Origin: a virus
Length of the DNA stretch: 51,262 bases
Virus record (IMG/VR): IMGVR_UViG_3300047476_000418
Coordinates: 1 to 51,262 of that record
Reading direction: 5' to 3' (one strand)
A program made the position numbers and the translations under genes. This document shows, piece after piece, positions 45,374 through 47,721 of the stretch. Position 1 is the stretch's first letter; every line of letters begins with the position of its first letter. The notes beneath the pieces are model-generated. The model saw only the letters and a list, made by a program, of their open reading frames with translations, was not told the DNA's origin and searched no databases.

Positions 45374-45458
45374 TGGTGGAGCAGGTAGGGATCGAACCTA
45401 CTGTGACCTGAGTCGGAGGATTTACAATCCCCTGCCATACCATTACGGCGGCTACTCC
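45374..45458 (-). tRNA. tRNA-Tyr (anticodon GTA)
   Basis: It is an 85-nt class II tRNA: acceptor GGAGTAG/CTGCTCC, D-stem GCC/GGC, anticodon loop TTGTAAA (GTA), 13-nt variable arm, T-arm GTAGG-TTCGATC-CCTAC, discriminator A, encoded CCA. It is the last tRNA of the cluster in transcription order. Confidence 0.93.
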
Positions 45459-45465
45459 TAAATTC

Positions 45466-45801
45466 TTAATAAAACTTCTGAACAAAACCTTTTAATAGTC
45501 TGTTGTCAAAAGCGTGTTGCATATTTTCTCTATGACTCACAATTTCCAGATTCGATAAACAATTATTAGATTTATTACCATCAATATGATTTATGTCTAA
45601 ATTTTCTGTATATCCTAAATAAGTTTCAGCAACTAATCTATGCACATAGTGTTGTTTTCGTTTTCTATTCTCAGACATTAGTTTTACAGCAAAATAACCA
45701 TTTCCATTATTGTATTCACACATAAATGTATTACGGAAAGTATCAAAAACTTTTCCATCTTTAGTTACTTTGTATCTTTTATTACTTGGTAATTCTTTCA
45801 T
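45466..45801 (-). CDS. HNH homing endonuclease inside the tRNA cluster
   Basis: This encodes 111 residues from ATG 45801, where GGAGAAACAA precedes; an ATG 12 bases earlier lacks a ribosome site. It has an N-terminal NUMOD4-like part (KRYKVTKDGKVFDTF...NGYFAVKL) and the HNH core VHRLVAETYLGY...DINHIDGNKSNNCLSNLEIVSHRENMQHAF (in part), with H, N and the final N/H expected for nicking or cutting. It sits between tRNA-Tyr and a degenerate tRNA, 7 bases from tRNA-Tyr, a typical landing site for free-standing homing genes. Confidence 0.85.
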   Translation of the reverse strand: MKELPSNKRYKVTKDGKVFDTFRNTFMCEYNNGNGYFAVKLMSENRKRKQHYVHRLVAETYLGYTENLDINHIDGNKSNNCLSNLEIVSHRENMQHAFDNRLLKGFVQKFY

Positions 45802-45886
45802 TTGTTTCTCCATCAGGAAACATCACTATTAGAGATAGACAGGATGGTGATGAATCATCTTTTCGGGAGCAAACCTAGTCTAAATT

Positions 45887-45960
45887 TGGAAGCGGGTACT
45901 GGATTCGAACCAGTGATGCTACGAGCATATGAAACTGCAGTGGTGACCACCCTACCCGCT
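45887..45960 (-). tRNA. Degenerate or atypical tRNA (anticodon uncertain)
   Basis: A perfect 7-bp acceptor (AGCGGGT/ACCCGCT), T-arm ACTGG-TTCGAAT-CCAGT, discriminator T and encoded CCA are present, so the 3' half is tRNA-like. Only 39 nt lie between acceptor and T-arm; no normal D-arm can be drawn, since that region is a tight GTGG-T-CACC palindrome, and the anticodon arm has only a GCA/TGC stem with an 8-nt loop GTTTCATA. A variable-arm-like hairpin ATGCT-CGT-AGCAT follows. It may be a decayed tRNA, perhaps damaged by the neighbouring HNH gene's arrival, or an unusual functional one. Confidence 0.5.
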
Positions 45961-45969
45961 ATTGATCTT

Positions 45970-46045
45970 TGGTATACCCCCTAGGAATCGAACCTAGAAC
46001 CTACGGATTTGGAATCCGTTGCTCTGCCAGTTGAGCTAGAGATAT
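45970..46045 (-). tRNA. tRNA-Trp (anticodon CCA)
   Basis: It is a 76-nt cloverleaf: acceptor ATATCTC/GGGGTAT with several T-G pairs, D-stem GCTC/GAGC, anticodon arm ACGGA-TTCCAAA-TCCGT (CCA), T-arm CTAGG-TTCGATT-CCTAG, discriminator A, encoded CCA. Confidence 0.93.
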
Positions 46046-46052
46046 AAATTAT

Positions 46053-46128
46053 TGGTCACCCTAGTAGGATTTGAACCTACGCCTCCTGACCCCAAATCAG
46101 GAACGCTACCAGACTACGCTATAGGGAG
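46053..46128 (-). tRNA. tRNA-Pro (anticodon TGG)
   Basis: It is a 76-nt cloverleaf: acceptor CTCCCTA/TAGGGTG with a T-T mismatch at the second pair, anticodon arm CCTGA-TTTGGGG-TCAGG (TGG), T-arm GTAGG-TTCAAAT-CCTAC, discriminator A, encoded CCA. It would serve the CCA and other proline codons that are frequent in the collagen-like fibre. Confidence 0.9.
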
Positions 46129-46228
46129 ATTCTTTATAAACTTATATTGGTGTTTTGAGGTACTTAAACTAGGCACACTTATTCAGGATGCCACGGACTT
46201 CCCGGTCCTGATCTTCAATATAATTTAT

Positions 46229-46318
46229 TGGCAGAAGTAACAGGATTCGAACCTGTGGGCAGCTTTCGCCACCGATGGTTTAGCAAACCATTGCCATAAG
46301 CCACTCGACCATACTTCT
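46229..46318 (-). tRNA. tRNA-Ser (anticodon GCT)
   Basis: It is a 90-nt class II tRNA: acceptor AGAAGTA/TACTTCT, anticodon arm ATGGT-TTGCTAA-ACCAT (GCT), long variable arm, T-arm ACAGG-TTCGAAT-CCTGT, discriminator G, encoded CCA. Confidence 0.94.
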
Positions 46319-46322
46319 AAAT

Positions 46323-46398
46323 TGGCTCCATTGGAAGGGCTTGAACCTCCGACCCAACACTTAACAGGCGTTTGCTCTACCGACTGAGCTACAATGGA
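46323..46398 (-). tRNA. tRNA-Asn (anticodon GTT)
   Basis: It is a 76-nt cloverleaf: acceptor TCCATTG/CAATGGA, D-stem GCTC/GAGC, anticodon arm AACGC-CTGTTAA-GTGTT (GTT), T-arm GGAGG-TTCAAGC-CCTTC, discriminator G, encoded CCA. Confidence 0.94.
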
Positions 46399-46450
46399 AT
46401 ATTTCTTAATTTTTCATGTATTTCTCTATTTGCGGAATACACGTTTATAC

Positions 46451-46526
46451 TGGAGTCCCCATCGGGATTCGAACCCGACTTGTCTGCGTGAAAGGCAGAT
46501 GTTCTAACCTACTAAACTACAGGGAC
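46451..46526 (-). tRNA. tRNA-Glu (anticodon TTC)
   Basis: It is a 76-nt cloverleaf: acceptor GTCCCTG/TGGGGAC, anticodon arm TCTGC-CTTTCAC-GCAGA (TTC), T-arm TCGGG-TTCGAAT-CCCGA, discriminator T, encoded CCA. Confidence 0.94.
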
Positions 46527-46534
46527 AAGTAAAT

Positions 46535-46610
46535 TGGTGCTGAAAGTAGGACTCGAACCCACCACCTACGGAGTACAAAACCGTTGCTCTACCAGATGAG
46601 CTATTTCAGC
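46535..46610 (-). tRNA. tRNA-Thr (anticodon TGT)
   Basis: It is a 76-nt cloverleaf: acceptor GCTGAAA/TTTCAGC, D-stem GCTC/GAGC, anticodon loop TTTGTAC (TGT) on a stem with one inner T-T mismatch, T-arm GTGGG-TTCGAGT-CCTAC, discriminator A, encoded CCA. It is the first tRNA after the cluster promoter. Confidence 0.92.
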
Positions 46611-46619
46611 GAATAAGCT

Positions 46620-46648
46620 ATTGTAACAGCACTTTGAACTTCTGTCAA
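46620..46648 (-). promoter_or_regulatory. Sigma-70 promoter for the tRNA cluster
   Basis: On the minus strand TTGACA (complement of 46643-46648), 17-bp spacer, TACAAT (complement of 46620-46625). The predicted start falls only a few bases before the tRNA-Thr 5' end, as in dedicated tRNA operons. Confidence 0.85.
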
Positions 46649-46655
46649 GAGCTTT

Positions 46656-46865
46656 TCAGATAGAATCTCTACAGTCCATCTCAGGATCATTATGTTCATC
46701 ATAAAATACAGGACTTGTCTTACCTGAAGGATTTCTTAGAAGTTCTACGTCAACTTGTACTTCTGAATCTAAATCCAAGAAAGCACGATCTAAGCAATCT
46801 TCGCATTCAGCAGTTTTGTTGAAAGCGTTTTGCTTAAAGTAACGATTACATGTAATGCAGTTCAT
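46656..46865 (-). CDS. Small CxxC zinc-finger-like protein
   Basis: This 69-residue protein has MNCITCNRYFKQNAF...AECEDCLDRAF, a C-x-x-C ... C-x-x-C pair expected to bind one zinc, and an acidic C-terminal half (LDLDSEVQVDVELLRNP). The ribosome site is weak. It is the only gene after a promoter-driven 250-nt noncoding leader and ends 8 bases before the tRNA promoter. Similar two-CxxC proteins occur near tRNA clusters in other large phages as hypotheticals. Function unknown. Confidence 0.68.
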   Translation of the reverse strand: MNCITCNRYFKQNAFNKTAECEDCLDRAFLDLDSEVQVDVELLRNPSGKTSPVFYDEHNDPEMDCRDSI

Positions 46866-47111
46866 TTGTTGTATTATTCTTTTTGTTAACCATTATGGAC
46901 AATTCACTGTAGTTTGTCTACAATGAGAAATAGTTGCTGGTTACTTATCCAGCTTGTACTGAAATAGCTATGACTGAAAGGAGTTTAAAGATACATAGCC
47001 GAACGTACAAAGATTTGTATCAATGCAGGGTTAAAGCATTTAATGACTTGAGCAGGTTTGCACCTCTTAATAGTGCAATTTACAAAAGTCTACAGATTTA
47101 ATTTACACAGA
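46866..47111 (-). ncRNA. Candidate structured noncoding RNA or long leader
   Basis: No ORF lies between the promoter at 47118-47146 and the gene ending upstream of 46865. On the minus strand the transcript contains at least five hairpins: TTGCAC/GTGCAA, TACAAA/TTTGTA, GGCTATG/CATAGC, GCTGG/CCAGC and CATTGTAG/CTACAGTG. Such density in AT-rich DNA is above what its neighbours show. It may be a cis-regulatory leader of the zinc-finger gene or an independent RNA. Confidence 0.5.
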
Positions 47112-47117
47112 TGCTTG

Positions 47118-47146
47118 ATTATAACACATAAAATCAGTAATTTCAA
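47118..47146 (-). promoter_or_regulatory. Sigma-70 promoter for the structured leader
   Basis: On the minus strand TTGAAA (complement of 47141-47146), 17-bp spacer, TATAAT (complement of 47118-47123). Its start near 47111 is about 245 bases before the nearest start codon. Confidence 0.82.
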
Positions 47147-47154
47147 GCGTAATA

Positions 47155-47637
47155 TCAATCAAACACGCAGTATTTACTTAAAATCTTAGCGTACTTCAAC
47201 TGCAACTTATTGTACATTCTTTTCGCTACTACTACATCTTGTACAACCAAGATTTTATCCTTGCCGTTTTCTTTCCAGATAAGCACATAAGAAAACATAT
47301 CCTTTTGATGCGGCTGTAGCTTCAAATATCCAGATAAATTACGGTGAGCTTCTTTTATGCTGTTGTAGACTTTCTTTGATATTAACCTTAAGTTGCAATA
47401 TCTGTAATCTGTTTCATCAAGATTTTTGTGCAGCACAACTTTATCTTTTTGTACAACAATATTTTGTACCAACTCAATTGCAACTTTATTAGCTTTTAAT
47501 TTTATTCTTCTAGCGTTTTTATAAAATACCAAATATCCGTCTTCATTAGGAAATATCTTACGATATCTACTATTACGTTTTAAAATAAAGAAATCACCAG
47601 TTAATATATCATAATCAATCAATTCTTTTACATTCAT
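47155..47637 (-). CDS. Degenerate HNH/NUMOD-like protein
   Basis: This encodes 160 residues from ATG 47637 (AGGAAAG ~10 bases upstream; earlier in-frame codons lack a ribosome site). The opening LIDYDILTGDFFILKRNSRYRK...DGYLVFYKNARRIKLKANKVAIELV follows the plan of phage HNH endonucleases (D-x-x-T-G-x-F, then G-Y, then a basic strand), and LHKNLDETDYRYCNLRLIS stands where D-H-I-N-G-x-x-x-D-N-R-x-x-N-L-R is normal. The catalytic H-x-N residues appear lost. It may be a nuclease relic kept as a DNA-binding protein. Confidence 0.6.
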   Translation of the reverse strand: MNVKELIDYDILTGDFFILKRNSRYRKIFPNEDGYLVFYKNARRIKLKANKVAIELVQNIVVQKDKVVLHKNLDETDYRYCNLRLISKKVYNSIKEAHRNLSGYLKLQPHQKDMFSYVLIWKENGKDKILVVQDVVVAKRMYNKLQLKYAKILSKYCVFD

Positions 47638-47721
47638 AATAAATACTTTCCTAAAGTTGACCTTTGATCTTTTTGTACAACAAACATGAAATTGATAGAA
47701 CGCTCTATATGCTCGTTTCAT

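Follow-up and report, generated by a model that had tools for sequence, protein, structure and literature searches.

A conserved structured RNA with an anti-Shine–Dalgarno-like loop in a phage tRNA island

The tRNA cluster of phage T4 encodes the stable RNAs C and D, small RNAs lying alongside the tRNA genes. They resemble the RNA described here in being small phage RNAs encoded together with tRNAs, although T4, a phage of enterobacteria, is no close relative. GOLLD and ROOL are large, ornate noncoding RNAs, likewise phage-encoded and structured, that often adjoin tRNA islands and have no known function; they measure from several hundred nt to over 800 nt, and GOLLD was reported to be ribosome-bound in pull-downs (PMC12286853). 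Another type of comparison is offered by RsaE, IsrR and FsrA, products of bacterial regulatory genes furnished with intrinsic terminators, in which a conserved, unpaired pyrimidine loop can base-pair with Shine–Dalgarno (SD) sequences; the binding of SD sequences by C-rich single-stranded regions is an established sRNA mechanism, e.g., in IsrR (PMC9410917).

The window analysed here is a complete viral record from IMG/VR (IMGVR_UViG_3300047476_000418; 51,262 nt, i.e., a 51-kb stretch), the numbering of which is used throughout; the RNA locus lies on its minus strand. Like GOLLD and ROOL, the RNA of this locus is phage-encoded, structured, noncoding and so far without a known function, and it adjoins tRNA genes both in the window and, on the downstream side, in most relatives. 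Unlike them, it is ~177 nt long, has another structure and shows no Rfam match to either; it shares their genomic niche but represents a different family. With RsaE, IsrR and FsrA it has in common a conserved single-stranded segment that is complementary to the SD, the (C)UCCUUU loop, but it is encoded by a tRNA-island phage gene lacking a terminator, possesses an elaborate 5' domain and carries the exact 16S-tail sequence instead of a C run. Membership in GOLLD/ROOL or in the SD-blocking sRNAs is not claimed.

The locus and its promoters

Among annotated relatives, Limnohabitans phage DC31 is the nearest, with 76% identity over the RNA region and ~85% over the neighbourhood; the hosts of this phage and of Curvibacter phage P26059A, Limnohabitans sp. 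DCL3 and Curvibacter sp. IMCC26059, respectively, are betaproteobacteria. A noncoding RNA is not mentioned in the passages found on phage DC31. Three consecutive promoters, for the RNA, the zinc-finger gene and the tRNAs, respectively, are located within 46640-47150 on the minus strand (Table 1), and the RNA is preceded by a gene (47155-47721) for an HNH_3-like protein, the Pfam match being weak.

A preliminary description of this DNA placed the RNA under a consensus promoter, TTGAAA/17/TATAAT, and ahead of a small zinc-finger gene followed by the promoter of the tRNA operon; all these elements are present. Taken alone, a consensus promoter scan does no better than chance here, the region being AT-rich (14 matches vs 13.8 expected). 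In the comparison of relatives, TATAAT stands at the same spot in 33 of 33 RNA copies and is TG-extended in 32 of them, with a -35 element of four to six matches at a distance of exactly 17 nt in every copy where it is scorable. Transcription of the RNA probably starts near 47112.

In clades I and II, a separate promoter for the zinc-finger gene lies 3' of the RNA; it agrees with the consensus at 12/12 positions in several clade II phages (L035, L037, L050, L070, L071). Most zinc-finger genes have an A-rich leader without an SD sequence. The small hairpin overlapping the -35 of this promoter persists where an HNH gene is inserted (L015) and may be either an RNA element or an operator. For the 4-Cys protein itself, no Pfam, PHROG or PDB relative was found, and its AlphaFold model (pLDDT 71, modest confidence) yielded no significant structural match. 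In the L117/L120 group, its cysteines are lost and the C-terminal motif is retained.

Table 1. Features of the RNA locus in the window (5' to 3' along the minus strand)
Feature	Position	Strand	Basis or remark
RNA promoter TTGAAA-17-TATAAT, extended -10 (TG)	47118..47146	-	11/12 consensus positions
Conserved structured RNA	46936..47117 (model span)	-	covariance model score 200 bits; covariation
5' domain, outer internal-loop motif GUA(AA)UU / AA(CCC)UGC; helix 47101-47095 / 47037-47031	47025..47106	-	helices 1 and 2
5' domain inner hairpin 47078-47072 / 47064-47058, loop AUUAAGA	47052..47083	-	helices 3 and 4
P2 stem UUGUAC 47010-47005 / GUACAA 46959-46954	46954..47010	-	helix 5, 100% of cells paired
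P2b stem 47000-46994 / 46972-46966, bearing the anti-SD-like loop	46966..47000	-	helix 6
P2b loop CUCCUUUC, same as anti-SD tail of betaproteobacterial 16S rRNA	46976..46983	-	sequence identity
3' hairpin P3 GCUGG-AUAAGUAA-CCAGC, taken as 3' end of the conserved RNA	46936..46953	-	helix 7, 100% paired
Small conserved hairpin CAUUGUAG/CUACAGUG in zinc-finger promoter/leader, outside the RNA	46905..46925	-	compensatory differences
Zinc-finger gene promoter-like sequence TAGACA-17-CATAAT	46892..46920	-	consensus scan, comparison of relatives
Small 4-Cys (zinc-ribbon-like) protein, 69 aa	46656..46865	-	C-terminal LLxNPSGKTxxVFYD conserved
tRNA-operon promoter TTGACA-17-TACAAT	46620..46648	-	consensus scan
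tRNA island Thr, Glu, Asn, Ser, Pro, Trp, Met, Tyr	45374..46610	-	

Fold, conservation and extent of the RNA

Homologous loci were gathered with the zinc-finger protein, the RNA motifs and the upstream HNH-like protein as queries. Limnohabitans phage DC31, Curvibacter phage P26059A and some 30 contigs from IMG/VR each carry the RNA once, which makes it a feature of a group of freshwater (lake) phages; 24 distinct sequences were aligned with MAFFT over 182 nt, from the -10 to the 3' hairpin (alignment A2). The resulting structure comprises 38 pairs in seven helices, and 97.1% of the cells are paired in this alignment, while slid control versions of the structure reach 27-36%. Both sides have changed at 20 pairs, and the covariation amounts to 0.416 vs 0.198 in shuffled alignments, none of the 500 shuffles scoring as high. 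A wider alignment, which was fitted to the model and hence leans toward it (A2 is free of that bias), is 95.4% paired with compensatory changes at 29 pairs; covariation of 0.55 vs 0.21 shuffled accompanies up to 29 compensatory pairs. As an example, UUGCAC/GUGCAA is replaced by UCGUUG/CAACGA. A chance structure is rejected by the covariation together with the slid controls. Covariation among relatives, the lack of which had been named beforehand as a refuting result, was found. A conserved structured RNA almost certainly exists.

In the 5' domain, the inner hairpin harbours a second copy of the GUAAAUU / AAMCCUGC internal loop, nested in the outer copy; its terminal loop, AUUAAGA in the window, reads AUUAAGC in many relatives. 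One A-U pair of helices 1 and 2 is G-C in eight sequences, and compensatory changes affect 5/7 pairs of helix 4. The P2b stem displays them at 5/7 pairs in the MAFFT alignment and at 7/7 in the wider one. The P3 hairpin abuts P2, and its stem GCUGG/CCAGC is changed to CCCGG/CCGGG in L020, L059 and L068.

The preliminary description also gave the noncoding RNA a length of ~245 nt free of open reading frames. The latter point stands: no minus-strand ORF of at least 30 aa lies between 47111 and 46866, so a coding region is rejected as a reading of this interval. The length was an overestimate, with conservation and covariation stopping at the P3 hairpin. Positions 46935-46866 comprise a variable linker followed by the promoter-like sequence and small hairpin of the zinc-finger gene; the last ~70 nt of the earlier interval are that gene's own promoter and leader. 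The expected transcript would extend from ~47112 to 46936, i.e., over ~177 nt. Folding of the earlier interval of 246 nt gave -55.3 kcal/mol (z = -3.5, one of 200 shuffles being equally good), and the 181-nt core gave z = -2.6. No intrinsic terminator with a U tract was found after the 3' hairpin, and the 3' end may be formed by processing. The linker after P3 is hypervariable, containing hairpin repeats that end in GCACUAA and are arranged in tandem in L002, L007 (2871-2990), L008, L009, L018 and L019; the 3' hairpin of the RNA also ends in GCACUAA.

The search model R1 recovered a single RNA copy in each of 16/16 records, scored 74.9 bits on phage P26059A and matched L015 as well as L006 (partially, at the contig end), in both of which an HNH gene precedes the zinc-finger gene. 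On loci outside its training set, model R2 scored 148 (L177), 116 (L192), 111 (L185), 77 (L190) and 58 bits (L191); L192 is similar to P26059A and has a near-identical counterpart in L193. Model scores are weak (E 0.02 or worse) in the most diverged slots (L111, L113, L114, L119, L121 and the L117 group), so homology there rests on synteny, the promoter, the 3' hairpin and the UCCUUUC motif. Weak R2 matches of 14-17 bits in L117 (2484-2557), L118 (3054-3128), L120 (4185-4258) and L122 (4215-4287) lie at another position of similar kind in the diverged group and may represent a tRNA or an additional small RNA.

At gathering scores, Rfam 15 recovered only tRNAs in the window and 15 distinct related loci; no known family, GOLLD, ROOL and riboswitches included, exceeded its gathering score, and the best sub-threshold match in the region was a chance snoRNA match (E 2.1). 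Matches to the int-alpA RNA of Rfam (threshold 35.8 bits) are located in L192 (2351-2414, 36.2 bits) and L191 (1734-1798, 33.0 bits). Bacterial copies were likewise rejected: a pattern scan of genome contigs returned three matches, in all of which the promoter is missing, as is the remainder of the RNA.

The loop of the P2b stem

The sequence of the P2b loop equals the mature 16S rRNA tail measured in Neisseria, a betaproteobacterium, CCUCCUUUCU (PMC6288834). A scan of genomes for 16S tails revealed one clear 16S rRNA end, CCTCCTTTCT (L154), and no Limnohabitans genome. CUCCUUU is displayed in a hairpin loop in 30 of the 33 RNA copies, and UCCUUU in the remaining three; CTCCTTTCA occurs once in the whole window and once, inside the RNA, in 9 of 17 records. 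The diverged slots L034, L111, L113, L119 and L121, otherwise barely alignable, keep UCCUUUC in a hairpin of the 5' domain, and L108 bears the motif in both positions. By chance, 0.0036 occurrences of the 8-mer and 0.02 of the 7-mer would be expected per slot. CUCCUUU is absent from the slot in the group of L117, L118, L120, L122 and L123.

Possible roles of the RNA

The RNA had initially been regarded as a regulator or a cis-acting riboswitch-like element. Conservation, compensatory changes and the anti-SD-like loop speak for the former; the latter is made less likely by intervening genes and by the zinc-finger gene's own promoter. As a 5' cis leader of the zinc-finger/tRNA transcript, the RNA would control transcription or translation in a riboswitch- or autoregulation-like fashion, with the zinc-ribbon protein binding, e.g., the two nested internal-loop motifs. 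A zinc-finger-like gene does follow on the same strand in every locus covering that side, and the long conserved 5' domain could serve as a receptor. However, in clades I and II a consensus promoter of the gene itself separates the ORF from the RNA. In at least seven loci other genes intervene, namely HNH genes in L006, L015 (2304-2930) and L177 (853-1400) and tRNA genes in L188, L190, L191 and L192, with the RNA remaining intact; the RNA is therefore not always directly upstream of the gene and co-transcribed with it. An expression platform is also lacking, there being no terminator, no alternative pairing with the start region of the gene and, mostly, no SD. Pairing of the loop in cis with the zinc-finger SD is rejected, since the gene has none in most loci. 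In other relatives, the RNA is separated from the zinc-finger gene by only 26-90 nt without a second promoter (the start codon follows the 3' hairpin by 26-73 nt, promoter-free, in L119, L121, P26059A, L108 and L034), so a cis role is possible there. Because the RNA is kept where an immediate leader role is impossible, we consider it a gene of its own in the tRNA island rather than a riboswitch leader; a separate gene is likely, and a cis leader is unlikely.

Comparably unlikely is a role in which CUCCUUU and the internal loops bind a protein (S1, the zinc-ribbon protein or another) or the ribosome as a decoy or scaffold, SD pairing being incidental. In line with such binding, the RNA and the zinc-ribbon gene occur together in every locus sampled, even in P26059A, which no longer has the upstream neighbour at this place. 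The reported ribosome binding of GOLLD, another tRNA-island phage RNA, in pull-downs (PMC12286853) points the same way, as do the conserved internal loops, whose elaborateness exceeds the needs of a pure antisense RNA. Still, protein binding alone does not explain why the most constant single-stranded element is the exact 16S tail, and a structural search with the modest-confidence model of the zinc-ribbon protein gave no relative.

That the RNA is a leader for processing, antitermination or stability of a long tRNA transcript, with no role in trans, is less likely still: it always lies upstream of or inside a tRNA island where the flank is covered, the L192 tRNA begins 42 nt past it and no intrinsic terminator separates RNA and tRNAs, but the tRNA operon of the window has its own promoter, L035, L068 and L074 lack a tRNA in their (short) flanks, and the anti-SD loop is left unexplained.

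The preferred reading, in which the RNA has a gene of its own and acts in trans through SD pairing, is a tentative one, somewhat short of an even chance. According to it, the strong extended -10 promoter at the head of the tRNA island would start a stand-alone noncoding RNA of ~177 nt. Its fold, as shown by covariation, consists of the 5' domain (two nested internal-loop copies and a hairpin), the long P2/P2b stem and the 3' hairpin. The P2b loop presents CUCCUUU(C), with which host 16S rRNA recognizes the SD, and would pair in trans in the infected cell with the SD of mRNAs from the host, the phage or both. Such pairing would compete with 16S rRNA and lower or re-rank the translation of these mRNAs, next to phage tRNAs, which retune translation as well. 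Displaying the ribosomal mRNA-docking sequence, the RNA may therefore disturb or reroute protein synthesis during infection.

No strong phage mRNA target common to the six phage genomes compared was found. With the own copy excluded, the perfect complement of the loop, GAAAGGAG, occurs 3 times vs ~16 expected in six related records and 5 and 8 times vs 9.6 and 11.5 expected in two others. Its rarity in the closer genomes is a weak trend, suggestive at most, and strong genome-wide avoidance is rejected. A further proposition, that the phage RNA is a mimic of the host's 16S rRNA 3' tail and vies with ribosomes for SD sequences, is conceivable but doubtful; the SD-less zinc-finger leaders fit an escape from such an RNA, and other explanations for them exist.

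Overall, a family of compact RNAs, with members in the cultured phages DC31 and P26059A, is added to the short list of tRNA-island phage RNAs without a function so far. Its conserved anti-SD loop leads to a concrete, testable hypothesis of action on translation initiation, and the test is feasible because two host–phage pairs exist in culture. If the RNA is indeed a 16S-tail mimic, translation during infection would be biased toward mRNAs with weak or no SD, including the SD-less leader of the adjoining gene.
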